DNA of 64,000 nucleotides from the NCBI GenBank assembly GCA_001464815.1, contig LNDW01000022.1:1-64000 (forward strand), written 5' to 3'. A program made the position numbers and the translations under genes. The notes beneath the pieces are model-generated. The model worked only from the letters and a program-made list of their open reading frames with translations. It ran no database searches and was not told the DNA's origin. Source of the DNA: Betaproteobacteria bacterium Ga0077527 (GTDB lineage Bacteria; Pseudomonadota; Gammaproteobacteria; Burkholderiales; SG8-41). Each line of letters begins with the position of its first letter. Within the stretch, counting starts at the first letter, position 1. Shown in pieces: positions 11,311 to 64,000 of the stretch.

Positions 11311-12473
11311 GGCGCAACCTCCGCATGGATGCGCTCGAAATAGGCGCCGATCAAGCCGTGGTAACGCGGGTCATCGAGCAGGAAGGCGTCGTGGCCGTGA
11401 GGTGCGTCGATTTCGGCATAACTGACCCGCGCGCGGTTTTTCAGGAGCGCATGCACGATCTCGTGGGACCGTTCCGGCGAGAAGCGCCAGTCGGTGCTGA
11501 ACGACACCACCAGCACGCCGGCCTGCACCGGCTTCAGCGCCGCAGCGAGGTTGCCGCCATGTTCGAGCGCCGGATCGAAGTAATCCAGCGCCCGGGTGAT
11601 GCGCAGGTAGGTGTTGGCATCGAAATAATCGGCGAACTTGTTGCCCTGGTGGCGCAGGTAGGACTCGATCTGGAATTCGGTGTCGAAGGTATAGCCGACG
11701 CGCCCGTTTTTCAGCTGCCGGCCGAACTTGTGCGCCATCTCGTCGTCGGACAGATAGGTGATGTGGCCGACCATACGCGCCACGCGCAGGCCGCGCTTGG
11801 GCGCGGTGCCCTTTTCGCGGTAATTGCCATCGTTGAAATCGGGATCGGTGATGATCGCCTGGCGTGCGACTTCGTTGAAGGCGATGTTCTGCGCCGACAG
11901 GCTGGGGGTGCAGGCGATGATGACGCTGTGGCGCAGGCGTTCCGGGTAACGGGTGGCCCAGGCCAGGGCCTGCATCGCGCCGAGGCTGCCGCCCATCACC
12001 GCGGCAAAACGGGTGATTCCCAGATGGTTGGCAAGGTGCTGCTGTGCATCGACCCAGTCCTCGACCGTGACCAGCGGAAAGTCACCGCCCCAGGCACGAC
12101 CGGACTGCGGGTTGATGCTGAGCGGCCCGGTCGAGCCGTGGCAGCCGCCGATGTTGTTGACGCCGATCACAAAAAATCGACGGGTATCGACCGGTTTTCC
12201 GGGGCCGATCATGTTCTCCCACCAGCCGGTATTGCCCGGCTCATCGGCGTAATGGCCGGCGACGTGGTGTGAGGCATTCAGCGCATGGCAGATCAGCACC
12301 GCATTGGAGCGTTCGGCGTTGAGCGTGCCGTAGGTTTCGTAAACCAGCTCAAAGCCGTCAAGCTCGCGGCCGCAGCGCAGGGGCAACGGCACGTCGAAGC
12401 GGGCGGTCTGCGGCGTTACGGCGCCGACCGATGCGGCGGCGCTGATGGCGGATGAAGTGGATGGCGTGGACAT
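11307..12473 (-). CDS. metX: Homoserine O-acyltransferase MetX
   Basis: A 388-aa alpha/beta hydrolase-fold acyltransferase for the first committed step of methionine synthesis. The nucleophile elbow [12 protein letters not shown], the catalytic Asp region and the terminal [12 protein letters not shown] are present. Acetyl-CoA versus succinyl-CoA use cannot be decided by eye; many proteobacterial MetX proteins are succinyltransferases. The ATG follows directly after the U-tract of an intrinsic terminator. The only Shine-Dalgarno-like sequence, GGGG, is the terminator's 3' arm. A SAM-II riboswitch and a consensus promoter lie upstream. Confidence 0.95.
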
Positions 12474-12505
12474 AAAAAAACCCCGCAGCCTGCGCTCCGG
12501 GGTTT
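12474..12505 (-). terminator. Intrinsic terminator in the metX leader
   Basis: On the minus strand AAACCCCG pairs with CGGGGTTT around a 12-nt loop, followed by seven U, after which the metX ATG begins at once. Its place between the SAM-II element and the start codon suggests an attenuator or expression platform. It may also limit read-through from ptsI, which lies upstream on the same strand. Confidence 0.8.
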
Positions 12506-12520
12506 CGAGAATTTCGTCGT

Positions 12521-12572
12521 CTCTTTAGCCGGATTTATTACGCGCCCGCAAGCTGATCTCAAATCGGCGCGA
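12521..12572 (-). promoter_or_regulatory. SAM-II riboswitch upstream of metX
   Basis: The minus-strand leader begins TCGCGCCGATTT, then AGCTTGCGGGCGCG, then AATAAATCCGGCTAAAGAG. This follows the SAM-II (metA-type) layout: a P1 stem TCGCGC/GCGCG(T), a GATTT segment pairing with AAATC in the pseudoknot, the conserved AATAAAT, and GCTAAA at the 3' end. It starts within a few nt of the predicted transcription start and lies directly upstream of the terminator and metX. SAM-II elements repress metA/metX-type genes when S-adenosylmethionine is plentiful. They are known mainly from alphaproteobacteria. Confidence 0.9.
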
Positions 12573-12584
12573 CAACAGTGCTGC

Positions 12585-40054: not shown

Positions 40055-41050
40055 TCAATCCATTTTGATGCCGGCAGACTGGATCAGCTTGCCGAATTTC
40101 TGGTGTTCCTCGCGCGCAAACTTGCCCAGTGCCTCGGCCGAAGTGCCCAGCGTTTCCAGGCCCAGCGTGATCAGGGATTCACGCACGTCCTGCTGGCCCA
40201 GCGCACGCTGGATTTCCGAGTTGAGCTTGTTGATGACTGCGGCTGGCGTTCCGGCGGGCGCGAAATAGGCGAACCAGTTGGTGACGACAAAACCGGGGGC
40301 GCCGGATTCGGCCATGGTGGGCACTTCGGGCGCGGCGGCCGAGCGTTTGGTCGCGGCAAGTCCCAGCGCGCGGAGTTTGCCGGTGCGCACATGCGGCATC
40401 GATGGCGGCATGCTAGAAAATGACATCGGGTTATGTCCGCCGATCAGATCCGGGATTACCGCGCCGACACCCTTGTAGGGCACGTGCACTATATCCAGCT
40501 TGTAGGTGGTTTTGAGCAGTTCACCGGCCAGATGGTGCACGCCGCCGGTGCCCGCCGAACCGTAGCTCATCTGTCCAGGTCTGGCCTTGGCCAAGGCCAC
40601 CAGCTCCTTCACGTTCCTCACGGGCAGGGAAGGATGCACGACCAGGATCAGGGGCGATGCGGTGGCCAGAGATACTGGCGCCAGGTCGCGCAGAGGGTCG
40701 TAGGGCATTTTTTGCATGTGGGGCAGGATCGCGATTTCCGCCGGCGTGCCGATCAGGATGGTGTAGCCATCGGCTGGAGACTTGGCCACATGGTCGGCGC
40801 CGATCACACCGCCGGCGCCGGTGCGGTTCTCAACAAGAACATTCTGTTTCAGCGATTCCGCCATTTTGCGGCTGACGGTGCGTGCGGTGATGTCGGTGGC
40901 GCCGCCAGGCGCGAAGGGCACCACCACACGGATCGGCTTCACCGGATAGTCCTGCGCGATAGCCAGTCCGGGGCCCCACGGCAGCCCCGGGTAAAGGGAT
41001 GCAATCATCAATGCAGCGGAATAGGCGGTGCTGCGCTTCAGGCTGTTCAT
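40055..41050 (-). CDS. Bug/TctC-type periplasmic solute receptor (selenoprotein locus)
   Basis: A 331-aa tripartite tricarboxylate receptor starting MNSLKRSTAYSAAL at ATG 41050. A signal peptide (about residues 1-32) precedes DYPVKPIRVVVPFAPGGATD, and the Bug signature PGG, the VENRTGAGG loop and YGSAGTGGVHHLAGE follow. Such receptors bind carboxylates or amides; the membrane TctAB parts are absent, as usual for orphan Bug genes. It is 37 nt downstream of the UGSC selenoprotein, so the two are probably cotranscribed and may share a substrate. Confidence 0.9.
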   Translation of the reverse strand: MNSLKRSTAYSAALMIASLYPGLPWGPGLAIAQDYPVKPIRVVVPFAPGGATDITARTVSRKMAESLKQNVLVENRTGAGGVIGADHVAKSPADGYTILIGTPAEIAILPHMQKMPYDPLRDLAPVSLATASPLILVVHPSLPVRNVKELVALAKARPGQMSYGSAGTGGVHHLAGELLKTTYKLDIVHVPYKGVGAVIPDLIGGHNPMSFSSMPPSMPHVRTGKLRALGLAATKRSAAAPEVPTMAESGAPGFVVTNWFAYFAPAGTPAAVINKLNSEIQRALGQQDVRESLITLGLETLGTSAEALGKFAREEHQKFGKLIQSAGIKMD

Positions 41051-41087: not shown

Positions 41088-42821
41088 TCAGACCAGGCAG
41101 GCGTCTTCTCCGCAACCAAGGTCGCGGTCAGCCTGACTGAGCAGGGCGTCAAAGCACTCAGGCAGTGCAATGGGCCTGCCAGTTACGGCTGGCGAATAAG
41201 CCTCCAGCCAGTAACTGTTGGTGGGATGGCCTCCTCCGGCTACCACCACCACCAGGTTTTCAGGCCGTGATGAGACCGGCCAGGGGTCGAGCGCGATGCT
41301 GGCCCTGACCGCCGGATCAGGTTCGGCCCTGATCCAGGTGTCGATGCCGTCACGCTTCAGCTGTTCTGCAGGGATGCGGGTCTGTTCCCATAAAAAGCTG
41401 CGGATGCTGTTCTTGCTCCAGCCCAGGGCAGCCATCGCCTTGGCGACCACCGGCGAGATCATCAACACGCCCGGGGTGCCGTTGGACCAGCCGATGAGGC
41501 AGCCCAGATTGGGTGAGCGCAGATATTGCGCCGTGCGCTGCATGCCCTGCAGGGCGTCGGTTTCGCGGGATTCGTCGCCGACCCCGCGGCGCCGGATGTT
41601 GGTGGCGCCGGTGGCAAAAATCAGCGATACGGAATTGCTGCCGGGTTCATAACCATGTCGTTCGCTGCCGTGGGGGCGCCAGCCTTCGGGCAGGCTGTCC
41701 TCAGCCTCGGCAAACACGGCATTGGTGTAGCGCATCGCACCCCACATGCCCATCGAGCCGACCCCGGGCAGTGCGCCGCCGAGGTTCTGCTGCATCAGCC
41801 GCAACGCGCGCCCGATGCTGGCCCCTGCAGGCCGCTGCGGGTCCGGACCGAGGCAGCCGAAGGAGGCATTGAGACGGATCTGCTTCGCGATCGGACCATT
41901 GACGATGATTACCGGGTAGGCGCTGGCGGAATCCGCCTGCATCTGCTGGCCGCCGGATTTGGCATCGACAAAGGCTTCCACTGCGGCGATCAGCACCGGC
42001 AGGTATTCGGGGCGTCCGCCGGCCATCGCGAGGGCGATGGCGCAGGTTTCGATGGTGGCCAGGGCGCCGCGCGGCGGAAATTTGCCCAGCACATGCTCGC
42101 GAGGCAGATGGGTGCCGCGCAGGATCCAGTCCACACGTTCCGGGGTTGCCGGGCGTACCGGCAGCCCGTCTCCCCACAAATTGGAGAGAATCAGGTTGTG
42201 TGCCTGATCGAGGGCGTCATCGTAGGTGGCGCCGCTGACTGTGATCAGCGGCGGCGAGGTGCCCGGCGAGCCGTAGTCGCCGCCGAGTTTCCAGGAGGTC
42301 AGTCCTGCGTAGAACTCATGGCGGCGCTGTTCGACGATGCCGAGGTCGCTTTCAGGAAGGAAAAGGTCGACCGGAAACGAGACCAGCGGTGTCTCCGGCG
42401 CGAAGCCGAGCCCGGATACCGCGTTTTTCACCACGCCGAGGAAATCCGACCTTGCCAGCAATACCGTCGGTATTCCGGCCATCTCTATCGCGGCTGCCGC
42501 TCTGCCCAGAGCGGTGGCGCAGGAACCTCAAGCCGCGTTGCCGATGATCACCCCGTCCAGATCAGCCTGTTTCAGGATCTGGATCGTGCCCGGCTCGCTG
42601 AGTACTGCATTACCTTCCGGGAAGTTTTCCGGCGGCAGTACTTTGATGTCCGGAAAGTCGGCTTCAAGCAGGCCTTGCATCAGTCGCAGGGCGCGCAGCG
42701 ATTGCCATTCGCCGTTGGCAAGCAGCCCGATTTTTTTGCCGGCCAGGGTGGGCAGGCGGGCCGCGTGATGCTGCGAAATGTCGAGCTTGCCCGAGGGGTT
42801 GAAAAACTGGATTTCGGCCAT
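41088..42821 (-). CDS. UGSC-family selenoprotein, fused N- and C-terminal domains (in-frame UGA = Sec98)
   Basis: Two open frames, 42821-42531 and 42482-41088, lie in one reading frame joined by TGA at 42530-42528 with sense codons between. Read as selenocysteine the junction is IGNAAUGSCATALGRA, the UGSC motif of the UGSC (seleno)protein family, with Sec98 and resolving Cys101. The product is 577 aa: an N-terminal UGSC domain (LAGKKIGLLANGEW, AGIPTVLLARSDF) and, from about residue 180, a C-terminal domain with LWGDGLPVRPATPERVDWIL that is homologous to the separate protein at 62685-63800. Start at ATG 42821 (alternatives 42830, 42851). A SECIS-like hairpin follows the UGA. Substrate unknown; a redox or reductive cleavage role is inferred from the Sec/Cys pair. 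Confidence 0.88.
42497..42514 (-). promoter_or_regulatory. SECIS-like hairpin after the in-frame UGA
   Basis: Beginning 13 nt after the UGA (42530-42528), CCGCTCT pairs perfectly with AGAGCGG around a GGGC loop. Bacterial SECIS elements sit just 3' of the UGA and carry a short apical loop with a G near its start, as here. It would recruit SelB for selenocysteine insertion. Confidence 0.7.
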
Positions 42822-42869
42822 GGCGGTCATCCGTTGGGAAGATGAAGTCATGTTGCGGAGGCCCGATGG

Positions 42870-42922: not shown

Positions 42923-43834
42923 ATGGAGCTGCGCCAGCTGCGCCAATTCGTTGCCGTCGCGGAGGAACTGCATTTCCGCCGAGCGGCAGCGCGTCTGCAC
43001 ATGACCCAGCCACCCCTGACCGCGGCCATCCGGCAACTGGAAGGCATCGTCGGCACCAAACTGCTGGAGCGGAATCAGCACCAGGTCAAGTTGACCGCCG
43101 CCGGCCAGCGTTTTCTGGATGAGGCCAGGATCACGCTGGCGCAGGCGGAACGTTCCATAGCCGCGGCCCGGCGCGCGCCCCAGGGCATCTCGGGCATCCT
43201 GCGTTTTTCCAGCGTGTCCAGCGCCAACCTGGGTTTGCTGCCGCATCTGCTGTCACGCTTCCGGATGGAGTATCCCGCCATCGAACTGCATATCACCTCG
43301 GTCACTTCCCTGCGTCAGGTCGAATTACTGAAACACGGGGATGTTGATCTCGGGTTGATCATGGTGCCGCTGCAGGACTCCCGCATGCTTGATATCACCG
43401 TCCTCGGCAGCGAAGAGATTGCCCTGGCGGTGCCGGCTGCCCATCCCATTGCCAACAAGGAGCGCATCAGCGTCAATTTGCTGGCGGCGGAGCGTTTCAT
43501 CATTTATCCCGCACCAGAAAACGTGGAGTTCGAGGGGGTGCTGATTGCCGCCTGCCAGCGTGCCGGGTTTTACCCGCGGGTGGCCCTGCATGCCGCGCAA
43601 ATGCTGACCAAGCTGGCGCTGGTCGAAAGCGGTTACGGGTTGACCATTGTTCCGGGATGCATGCGCAAGGTGCATATGCCGGGCATTCGTTACCTGCAGT
43701 TGTGCGAGGGACGAACCCCCCTGCGCTACACGATCGCCCTGGCCTCGCGTTCAAATCTCAACAGCCAGCTGGTGCATGCATTTGTATCAATGGCGCGCAG
43801 GGTCTGCAAAACCTATTTCGCGACTGCGAAATAG
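42923..43834 (+). CDS. LysR-family transcriptional regulator (selenoprotein locus)
   Basis: A 303-aa LysR protein with N-terminal winged HTH MELRQLRQFVAVAEELHFRR and LHMTQPPLTAAIRQLE (about residues 1-60), then a substrate-binding domain. It is divergent from the UGSC selenoprotein and Bug receptor genes, so it most likely controls them and itself. The inducer is unknown. Confidence 0.93.
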   Translation: MELRQLRQFVAVAEELHFRRAAARLHMTQPPLTAAIRQLEGIVGTKLLERNQHQVKLTAAGQRFLDEARITLAQAERSIAAARRAPQGISGILRFSSVSSANLGLLPHLLSRFRMEYPAIELHITSVTSLRQVELLKHGDVDLGLIMVPLQDSRMLDITVLGSEEIALAVPAAHPIANKERISVNLLAAERFIIYPAPENVEFEGVLIAACQRAGFYPRVALHAAQMLTKLALVESGYGLTIVPGCMRKVHMPGIRYLQLCEGRTPLRYTIALASRSNLNSQLVHAFVSMARRVCKTYFATAK

Positions 43835-61627: not shown

Positions 61628-62587
61628 TCAGGGCGAGATGGGGCCGATCAGCTTGACCAGCTTGCCGTGTTTTTCGTAGTCGGATCGCAGGCGCGCCATC
61701 GCCTGTTCAGGGGTCATGTGCCAGGGCTCCAGCTCGGCCAGCTTGTTGTCCGGACGGTCGAGTACTTTCTTGATTTCAGCGTTGAGGCGGTCGATCACCG
61801 GTCTGGGGGTGGCTGCCGGAGCGAATACCGCGACCCAGCCACGGTATTCATAGCCGGGTACGCCGGATTCGGCGACCGTGGGGGCATCCGGAAACTGCCT
61901 GAGGCGGGAGTCCGAGGTTACTGCGAGCAGGCGCAGCCGCTGCGACTGCAGCTGTGTTGCCAGGGCTGCCGGCGTACCGGCGATCAACTGCGATTCACCG
62001 GACACCATGGCGGTGGTCGCCGGGCCGCCGCCCTTGTACGGCACATGCAGCATTCGGGTGCCGCTCATCGAGTTGAGCAGTGCTATGGCCATGTGTGAAA
62101 AACTGCCGTTGCCCGATGAGGCGTAAAGAATCTGGTCCGGGTGCCTGCGCGCGAGGGAGACCAGTTCCTTCACCGATTTCACCGGCAGCGAGGGGTGGGT
62201 TGCTAGCAGGCCGGTCTGTGCCACCAGGAAGCCGGCCAGCGTGAAGTCACGCAGGGTGTCATAGCCCAGCTTGGGATAGGTGTAGGCATTGCTGATGTGG
62301 CTGGTCGAATGGACCATCAGCGTGTAGCCGTCGGGTGCCGACTTCGCCAGCATTTCGCTGCCGATGCTGCCGGTGGCGCCCGGACGATTGTCGATGATGA
62401 ACTGCTGACCGGTCTGCTCGGAAATTTTTGCGAACACCAGACGGCCGGCGATGTCGGTGAGGCCTCCAGGTGGCCAGGGAATGATCACCCTGACTGTTTT
62501 GGCAGGGTAGTTCTGTGCGTTGGCCGGTGCGGTGGACAGTAGCGTGGCGGTAGCCAGCAGGGCTGCGGCAAACATGGCGTGCTTCAT
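61628..62587 (-). CDS. Bug/TctC-type periplasmic solute receptor (split UGSC locus)
   Basis: A 319-aa receptor starting MKHAMFAAALLATATLL at ATG 62587, with a signal peptide ending near ANAQ, then NYPAKTVRVIIPWPPGGLTD, the IDNRPGATGSIG loop and YASSGNGSFSHMA. Same family as the receptor at 40055 and, like it, next to UGSC-type genes (97 nt upstream). Ligand unknown. Confidence 0.9.
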   Translation of the reverse strand: MKHAMFAAALLATATLLSTAPANAQNYPAKTVRVIIPWPPGGLTDIAGRLVFAKISEQTGQQFIIDNRPGATGSIGSEMLAKSAPDGYTLMVHSTSHISNAYTYPKLGYDTLRDFTLAGFLVAQTGLLATHPSLPVKSVKELVSLARRHPDQILYASSGNGSFSHMAIALLNSMSGTRMLHVPYKGGGPATTAMVSGESQLIAGTPAALATQLQSQRLRLLAVTSDSRLRQFPDAPTVAESGVPGYEYRGWVAVFAPAATPRPVIDRLNAEIKKVLDRPDNKLAELEPWHMTPEQAMARLRSDYEKHGKLVKLIGPISP

Positions 62588-62684: not shown

Positions 62685-63800
62685 TCAACCCCGCTTCAAT
62701 TCCTGGACCGATTTCACCAGCACTCCGTCTGCCCGCTTCAGCGCTCTGGTCGCGGCACGGGTGATGCCGAAGGTCGGCACGTACTGCGAGTGTTTGCCCG
62801 CGCCGCCAGTGACGATGACGATCAGGTCATCAGGTTTCTGCCACATGTGCACCGGCGTATCGAGCGGCGCATTGGCGTACTGGTCGGCGTTCCTGCGGCG
62901 AAAACGCCGCGCGATGGTCTCTTCGGAGAAGCGCGACAGCGGGATCACCGCATCGTCATAAAGCCACTGCTTGACCTGAGCCTTGGTCATGCCTTTGCTG
63001 GCCACCGTGGCCGCGTGTTCCGGGCCGAAGGCCAGCACCGGCTGGCCGGCGTAATAGGCATTGTTCGATCCGGTGGTAGCCATGGTGCCCGACACCATGC
63101 GCAGGATGCCCTCGGGCGTCAGGCTTTCATGATCGTTGATGTTGTGCGGACTCTCGGCGGCGACGACCGTCACGGTGGTCGCGTCCAGCGGGTAGCCCAG
63201 CTCCACGTGCAGCGGCTCCCAGGGCGATGCCGCCTCGTTTTCGGCCACGCAGAAGGTGAATTTGGCCGGCGTGCCGGCGGTGGCCATGTCGCCGGTGCCC
63301 GGAATCGCGCCGCCGATGTTGACCAGCGCCAGCCGCACCGCGCGGCCGATCACGGCGTTGGCGCGATGATAGTTGCCCATCACGTTGTGGCCCGAGTGGA
63401 TGCCCACTTCGCGCGCCACCGGGCCATTGAAAATCAGCATCGGCGTGCAGGGATGGGTGGTCGCCTGCGTACCGTAGAGGTTGTACTGGTCCTCGGCCAG
63501 CGCTTCCAGCGCCAGCAGCACCAGCGGGAAATGTTCCGGCTTGCAGCCGGCCATCACCGCGTTGGCGGCCACGCGCACCGGCGTTGCCGCGCCGAAACGC
63601 GGCGGGATCTTGATCACCGGGGCGTCGAGGTCGCGGTCGCAGTAGGCAAGCATGCGTTCGACACGTTCCGGCGTCGGCGGGATCACCGGCAGGCCGTCGC
63701 TCCAGCCCTTTGCGCAGAGGAACTCGAACACCGCCTCCGGATCGTCGTCGCACTCAACCAGTGCGCCGGGTTTCTGCAGCAGGGTGGTGAGGGCGGTCAT
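62685..63800 (-). CDS. Stand-alone UGSC-family C-terminal domain protein
   Basis: A 371-aa protein homologous to the C-terminal part of the fused selenoprotein at 41088: WSDGLPVIPPTPERVERML against WGDGLPVRPATPERVDWIL, FNGPVAREVGI against VNGPIAKQIRL, and VNIGGAIPGTGDM against QNLGGALPGVGSM. It contains no Sec codon. Its start overlaps the stop of the upstream UGSC-like gene by 4 nt, so the two domains are made as separate but coupled chains here. Function unknown. Confidence 0.8.
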   Translation of the reverse strand: MTALTTLLQKPGALVECDDDPEAVFEFLCAKGWSDGLPVIPPTPERVERMLAYCDRDLDAPVIKIPPRFGAATPVRVAANAVMAGCKPEHFPLVLLALEALAEDQYNLYGTQATTHPCTPMLIFNGPVAREVGIHSGHNVMGNYHRANAVIGRAVRLALVNIGGAIPGTGDMATAGTPAKFTFCVAENEAASPWEPLHVELGYPLDATTVTVVAAESPHNINDHESLTPEGILRMVSGTMATTGSNNAYYAGQPVLAFGPEHAATVASKGMTKAQVKQWLYDDAVIPLSRFSEETIARRFRRRNADQYANAPLDTPVHMWQKPDDLIVIVTGGAGKHSQYVPTFGITRAATRALKRADGVLVKSVQELKRG

Positions 63801-64000
63801 GACGGCTGCTTCCGGGAGGATTGGATGAAGCGGAGGAGCTGGGGCATCGCCACCGCGGCGCGCTCACGCACCTGGTCCAGGTTGAGCCCGCCCAGCGGGT
63901 GCTTGATTTCGAGCAAAGGCAGGTCTGGCACGCCGAAGACCTTGGCCTGGGCCTTGCCCAGCTTCATGAATGAATCCGAGCACACCACGGCGGCGAGCAG
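63797..64000 (-). CDS. UGSC-family N-terminal domain protein, 5' part beyond window
   Basis: The last 67 codons of a gene entering from the right edge (reads LLAAVVCSDSFMKLGKAQAK, then GVPDLPLLEIKHPLGGLNLDQV). KxGxAQAxxxGVPDLxLxxxxHPLGG is the part that follows the UGSC motif in this family, so the motif itself, with Sec or Cys, should lie just outside the window. It overlaps the next gene by 4 nt. Confidence 0.65.
   Translation of the reverse strand: MLAAVVCSDSFMKLGKAQAKVFGVPDLPLLEIKHPLGGLNLDQVRERAAVAMPQLLRFIQSSRKQPS

Follow-up and report, generated by a model that had tools for sequence, protein, structure and literature searches.

The locus and its genes

The window, by which we mean the whole stretch of 64,000 nucleotides that was analyzed, carries on its minus strand a gene of the UGSC selenoprotein family whose reading frame contains one internal TGA. 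The features around this codon are listed below, with the basis of each in parentheses.

41088–42821, minus strand: gene for a 577-aa fusion of a UGSC domain with a partner domain, a predicted selenoprotein (one frame, PF24696 match, start column in the alignment)
42528–42530, minus strand: in-frame TGA, read as selenocysteine (Sec), residue 98, in the UGSC motif (homologous loci and sel machinery)
42288–42821, minus strand: UGSC domain, residues 1–178 (PF24696 match at residues 17–141; AlphaFold2; Foldseek)
41091–42254, minus strand: partner domain, residues 190–577, outside any Pfam or NCBIfam family (residues conserved in the A2 sequence set)
42497–42514, minus strand: hairpin CCGCTCT-GGGC-AGAGCGG, a candidate bacterial SECIS (7 bp, 13 nt after the UGA, covariation with homologue L070)
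40055–41050, minus strand: TctC/Bug solute-binding receptor gene (PF03401, 253.8 bits; 37 nt downstream of the fusion gene)
42923–43834, plus strand: divergent LysR-type regulator gene (PF00126/PF03466; 101 nt from the UGSC start)

Translated on the minus strand, the frame of the fusion gene comprises 578 codons, from the ATG at 42821–42819 to the terminal TGA at 41090–41088, and the TGA at 42530–42528 is its only internal stop. When this codon is read as Sec, the motif NAAUGSCAT results, in the context ...IIGNAAUGSCATALGR. The start methionine falls in the same alignment column in 8 of 11 close homologues (alignment A1; L023–L032 and L053), and the remaining three rows start later. A preliminary description of the locus, made from its letters, had proposed two frames that are continuous and in phase across the TGA; its coordinates proved exact, with 577 residues and one internal TGA. 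It had also anticipated that standard gene calling would split the protein, and both the ORF list and a codon-usage gene finder cut the gene into 42528–42851 (or 42528–42830) and 41088–42482.

The same description called the protein unannotated-looking, which holds for simple gene callers but not for the literature. UGSC is a named selenoprotein family, the "UGSC-containing protein" of Zhang and Gladyshev 2008, and a UGSC/"Unknown_1" fusion from ocean data was described in 2008 (PMC2398784); the window gene thus belongs to a kind already known. In both fusions UGSC is joined to a conserved domain without an assigned function, and our partner domain is probably Unknown_1.

Elsewhere in the window, a SAM-alpha riboswitch lies at 12504–12580 on the minus strand (RF00521, 40.8 bits), and the gene downstream of it, which ends at 12473, looks like a homoserine acetyltransferase.

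Selenocysteine decoding of the internal TGA

An initial contig scan with the single fusion protein as query found no relative. A search of genome contigs yielded at least 547 relatives, the best 80 of which form the set of homologous loci used throughout. The Sec site is covered by 78 of these best 80, the two others (L100 and L148) being without the N-terminal part. TGA stands at the site in 76 loci and a Cys codon in two, which excludes a lack of homologues with Sec or Cys at this position. Among the 76 TGA loci, 74 read U-G-x-C, one (L139) U-G-S-F, and one (L117) has TGA-TGA. The Cys versions, L088 from a Rhizobiales isolate (CGAC) and L126 from Chelativorans alearense (CGGC), each form one open frame.

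The source genome (3.42 Mb in 26 contigs, 91% complete) holds the machinery for Sec insertion, which excludes the suspicion that sel genes might be missing: we found tRNA-Sec (75.9 bits), SelA (534.6 bits), SelB (429.8 bits), and SelD (426.8 bits). The SelD gene (C7:99371–100300, L159) itself contains one in-frame TGA, so SelD is probably a selenoprotein too. We also surveyed SelB in the genomes of 16 chosen loci, both Cys versions and 14 Sec versions. It scored over the cut-off in 13; the three without such a score were both Cys-version genomes and that of L070. The latter genome, which probably corresponds to assembly G144 (84% complete, ~530 contigs), holds SelB-like pieces covering profile positions 1–74, near a contig start, and 468–581.

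Compared with L070, which is 75% identical, the window gene shows identities at codon positions 1/2/3 of 77/87/42% before the TGA, 87/100/60% over the 15 codons that separate the TGA from the downstream ORF's first ATG, and 84/90/52% for the partner domain. These values indicate protein-coding constraint on either side of the TGA and across the gap. Gene callers divide the frame at this codon, as they would if it were a true stop between two separate genes, in a pseudogene or through a sequencing error; that reading is very improbable, as the TGA is common to 76 of the 78 covering loci, from several phyla by their record titles, the constraint runs across it, and the two natural Cys versions stay in one frame. 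The recurrence of the TGA in 76 other loci among the best 80 also speaks against a base error. That the UGA encodes some other residue under an altered code can be dismissed almost entirely: frames open under another code turn up easily, but TGA ends 40 of the 56 gene calls in the window (one of the 40 being the split 5' piece of the fusion gene) and is otherwise a stop codon there by these gene-call ends, the genome has tRNA-Sec, SelA, SelB, and SelD, and the residue at the two covering loci without TGA is Cys. On this comparative evidence we regard it as nearly certain, with a probability of about 97%, that the UGA at 42530–42528 is decoded as Sec and that the fusion protein is a real selenoprotein.

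As candidates for a second Sec residue, four matches with two TGAs were inspected and set aside, since in each of them the second TGA closes the protein and resembles a normal stop. The Anaerolineales homologue L117 has adjacent TGAs at the motif (UU-G-C; codons 98–99, counted from 0) and two further TGAs near its end (codons 533 and 535, counted from 0), which may reflect multiple Sec residues, an error, or a decayed gene.

The hairpin downstream of the UGA

Bacterial SECIS elements follow the rule of a hairpin whose apical loop lies 16–37 nt after the UGA and has an early loop G. The perfect 7-bp hairpin with a GGGC loop, said to begin 13 nt after the UGA, is present exactly as claimed, and L070 retains it with one compensatory pair change, U-A to C-G. 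Against 200 synonymous recodings of this GC-rich region, 11 did equally well (P = 0.055). A rule-based test over the 76 TGA sequences from the best 80 loci gave P < 0.05 in 11, with a median of 0.425. The best hairpins (L116, L124, L132, and L141; P 0 to 0.03) have a G-U-A or G-U-G loop. The hairpins of the two Cys versions are poor (P = 0.95 and 0.76), as fits sites without Sec, but those of many Sec versions are no better. The fold energy after the UGA showed no overall excess over synonymous recodings (mean z +0.35, n = 75; window +0.79), and a distant subclade of homologues lies clearly on the stable side. An Rfam search returned nothing relevant at the site. Given the marginal P value, the GC-rich region, and the lack of a fold-energy excess, the hairpin is a plausible candidate SECIS, and the role first ascribed to it goes no further than a suggestion.

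The UGSC domain: family membership and predicted fold

Membership of the UGSC family, also put forward in the preliminary description, was borne out by the joined translation, which scored 57.4 bits against PF24696 (cut-off 25, E 2.7e-15) with the Sec in the U-G-x-C motif. All 52 members of set A2, the window included, matched PF24696 at E ≤ 1. Although the fusion protein shares the Sec motif and the PF24696 match with its family, it differs in carrying the partner in the same chain and in reaching 44.6 bits on NCBIfam NF041046, below the equivalog cut-off of 125. Two stand-alone UGSC paralogues of the source genome, those tested, pass that cut-off.

An AlphaFold2 model built with 52 sequences (pLDDT 92.1, pTM 0.92) gave the UGSC domain a (beta-alpha)4-beta topology and placed Sec98 where helix 99–114 begins. 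The fold is therefore predicted to be Rossmann-like, with U98-x-x-C101 at a helix N-terminus. When the UGSC domain alone was submitted to Foldseek, two matches reached E ≤ 0.001, both to EF-Tu; the others included B12-binding, dehydroquinate-synthase, and further Rossmann-like proteins at query TM-scores of ~0.3–0.5. By title, no thioredoxin-fold protein appeared in the top 50 of 1591 matches. The model thus favors a Rossmann-like over a thioredoxin-like fold, contrary to the guess made in 2008 in the relevant passage of PMC2398784. Asparaginase_C (PF17763) matched 13 of the 52 members (best E 0.0004); we took these matches as general Rossmann-like resemblance.

The partner domain accompanies UGSC in the source genome

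Across the 52 sequences of A2, the residues D218, G219, P224, P250, A279, G309, R338, E372, W381, and G467 of the partner domain are invariant. No Pfam or NCBIfam family matched it at E ≤ 0.001. A PDB sequence search with A2 gave nothing significant (best E 0.76), and Foldseek with the full fusion model gave no PDB match at E ≤ 0.001; by these searches the partner domain is without a known solved relative.

A PF24696 search of the source genome returned seven UGSC genes, each with one TGA. Two are fusions, the window gene and C15:444247–445968, which are 59% identical, and all five stand-alone UGSC genes have a separately encoded partner beside them (blastp E 7e-30 to 4e-40). The partner family thus goes with UGSC in this genome, fused in two cases and neighboring in five of five. 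One of the stand-alone systems (L058) lies at the end of the window.

62685–63800, minus strand: stand-alone partner gene of the second UGSC system (29% identity and E 8e-33 to the partner domain)
63797–64000, minus strand: 3' part of the second UGSC selenoprotein gene (NF041046, 130.7 bits, over the cut-off)

This second UGSC gene continues to C22:64342, and its TGA lies beyond the window. A TctC-like receptor gene (61628–62587) follows the partner gene, giving the order UGSC, partner, TctC that is also seen in the fusion system. In the region L053 4254–11426 (on C15), the second fusion gene has MmgE/PrpD, multi-rhodanese, HMGL-like, and CoA-transferase III genes around it by Pfam, and parts of this cluster recur by eye in related loci (also L075, L083, and L103).

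Fusions in the reverse order, partner then UGSC, had been suggested by ORF extensions in L044, L047, L049, and L051 and were dropped. In the first three, the two domains lie in different frames, so these are neighboring genes; in L051, tblastn gave the partner alone.

The active-site segment aligns with GrdB/PrdB-type selenoproteins

The source genome also carries a PF07355-type, PrdB-like selenoprotein of 405 aa (PF07355, 38.7 bits) with the site sequence VDAVLLSPVUPNCTCAVGALGHYLEREGIPT. PF07355 matches occurred in 3 of 200 genomes of the phylum, and relatives of the PrdB-like protein occurred in 15 of 150 genomes of the order, the source genome counted. A PDB sequence search with this protein gave nothing significant (best E 0.15). 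At locus L166 (C21:32267–34117), a selenoprotein with the motif HGCHYUMAHT, presumably AhpD-like, precedes the PrdB-like selenoprotein with its UPNC motif. These two selenoproteins share the genome and the Sec machinery with the window protein but belong to different families.

We compared the UGSC profile with a PF07355-type profile, built from the PrdB-like protein plus 23 rows (one of which repeats that gene), of which three distinct sequences were tested against PF07355 itself. The hhalign probability was 95.5 (E 1.6e-8); the alignment spans 48 columns and superposes those that hold the Sec/Cys. In a column-shuffle control, the best of 100 shuffles scored 24.4 against 56.2 for the real profile. 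Fourteen neighboring gene families served for further comparison: 13 stayed at or below 8.3%, and the remaining one reached 96.2%. The latter consists of partner-type ORFs, in which we read the matched residues 4–42 as UGSC tails from split gene calls; the partner domain itself did not match the PrdB-like profile (probability 0.1).

Profile comparison thus shows the UGSC active-site segment to be homologous to the U-x-x-C stretch of the PF07355 type, the type of GrdB and PrdB in glycine and D-proline reductase, and the UGSC active site looks related to that of selenium enzymes that split amino acids. The likeness consists of Sec/Cys-x-x-Cys within the 48-column alignable stretch and extends to the electron supply, which is of the thioredoxin type in those reductases and likely to be so for UGSC. 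On the side of the differences, the partner is unrelated to the PrdB-like profile, and the fusion protein gave no match to Pfam PF07355, with a single nonsignificant one (E 0.24) among the 52 members. PF09338, the GrdE-type subunit, had four matches among the 52, none significant (best E 0.11). A genome search for it found 0 of 299 genomes in the phylum, a count that is uninformative because no control genome matched either. The comparison with GrdB-type proteins offered at the outset therefore gains support from the Sec active-site segment, while the reductive cleavage proposed along with it stays conjectural.

Neighboring genes and a candidate electron donor

The TctC/Bug receptor gene downstream of the fusion gene is likely to be co-transcribed with it, and a TctC-like gene, named by eye, also follows the homologue in L070. 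Receptors of this kind, again named by eye, lie within 7 kb in 28 of the best 80 loci; this closeness is weak evidence, given how abundant TctC genes are in genomes of this kind. Catabolic-looking neighbors recur in the same 80 loci, by names given by eye: CoA transferase in 14, acyl-CoA dehydrogenase in 11, and MmgE/PrpD in 10.

In the sel locus of the source genome, selA, selB, a thioredoxin-reductase-like (TrxR-like) gene, a further gene that we take to be YaeQ-like, and tRNA-Sec follow one another on one strand. The TrxR-like flavoprotein scored 231.2 bits on TIGR01292, under the cut-off of 343.45. Glycine reductase has a thioredoxin system, of which this arrangement is reminiscent. Ten of the best 80 loci encode a relative of the flavoprotein (33–61% identity) no more than 7 kb from the UGSC gene, 9 of them on the same strand. 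In L129 and L121 the TrxR-like gene directly follows the fusion gene, and in L127 selA- and selB-like genes, named by eye, lie alongside. All 10 loci are distant homologues (~30% identical) from another subclade, none of them a fusion of the window type.

Proposed mechanism and alternatives

The literature covered, including what PMC13188914, PMC2398784, PMC9312934, and PMC5029168 say on the family in their relevant parts, gives no function for UGSC, and the first of these, in the part concerned, counts UGSC proteins among the selenoproteins with largely uncharacterized functions. We propose that UGSC and its partner form a two-part selenol reductase fed by a thioredoxin reductase, a reading to which we give even odds. 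The fusion protein would then be one chain of a two-part enzyme. Its N-terminal UGSC domain is modeled as a Rossmann-like redox domain with U-x-x-C at the start of a helix, and the substrate would be bound by its C-terminal partner, in which Asp, Arg, Glu, and Trp residues are conserved. The Sec98 selenolate may attack a small organic molecule or take up its leaving group; TctC-like receptors hint, weakly, that this molecule is probably a carboxylate brought in via the neighboring Bug-type receptor. The outcome would be reductive cleavage or reduction of the substrate. C101 could then resolve the selenium as an Se-S bond, and this bond would be reduced by the TrxR-like flavoprotein encoded between selB and selC.

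The protein might instead be a Sec-using peroxidase or a thiol-disulfide-type oxidoreductase that handles oxidants rather than a reductase that cleaves metabolites. U-x-x-C is a common dithiol-like redox motif, TrxR-like neighbors fit such an enzyme equally, and the 2008 guess of a thioredoxin-like fold, as worded in that part of PMC2398784, points the same way. Set against these are the predicted (beta-alpha)4-beta fold, with its lack of thioredoxin-fold titles in the Foldseek top 50 of 1591, and a large partner that stays constant together with large numbers of paralogues in some genomes, which suggest a variety of substrates more than a single oxidant. We consider this alternative unlikely, at about half the weight of the reductase.

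A role in binding or detoxifying an electrophile or heavy metal by means of selenium, in which the partner would act as carrier, is more doubtful again: Sec is a good binder of soft metals and the paralogues lie near varied genes, but no metal-resistance gene was seen by eye among the recurrent neighbor clusters of the best 80 of at least 547 loci, where the genes that recur look catabolic (CoA transferase, acyl-CoA dehydrogenase, MmgE/PrpD).

Extent of the family and implications

Matches to the fusion at E ≤ 1e-10 were found in 35 of 300 genomes of the order (13 of 134 genera). Within the source bacterial family, 56 of 74 genomes, from nine of nine genera, had matches at E ≤ 1e-100, and all 74 had PF24696 matches in a search that scored at most 40 candidates per genome. 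Four genomes chosen for their large numbers had 58 (G293), 40 (G305), 36 (G362), and 35 (G354) UGSC matches, some of them pieces at contig ends and in MAGs that may be mixed (8% contamination in G305). Nearly all matches listed for these four have one TGA each; the exceptions among them are one terminal fragment without TGA and a few with an additional TAA or TAG. The four are candidates for very large selenoproteomes. The largest bacterial selenoproteomes have 57 and 63 selenoprotein genes according to the relevant part of a 2026 review (PMC13188914).

As far as the literature covered goes, four points are new: the UGSC active site matches the PF07355 type by profile, in a domain predicted to be Rossmann-like; the partner is constant in the source genome, fused in two cases and adjoining in five of five; a TrxR-like gene lies in the sel locus as well as near UGSC genes of another subclade; and every one of the 74 genomes searched in the family has UGSC genes, with up to 58 matches in one.

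Selenium-dependent reductive catabolism is known from anaerobic amino-acid fermenters. Our broader and more tentative suggestion is that UGSC and its partner represent a large class of GrdB-like, TrxR-fed selenium reductases that radiated in free-living Betaproteobacteria and their relatives. If this is true, selenium-dependent reductive catabolism would be a main attack on many organic acids in soil and groundwater bacteria, and the selenoproteomes of the genomes with high UGSC counts would be among the largest known. A testable frame is provided by the resemblance of the active site to that of GrdB/PrdB, by the constant partner, and by the candidate electron donor that the sel operon encodes. 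Expression of the two natural Cys versions, one of which comes from Chelativorans alearense UJN715, a named isolate, calls for no selenium tools. What is of interest is the unexplained UGSC class, on which the window gene offers a handle.
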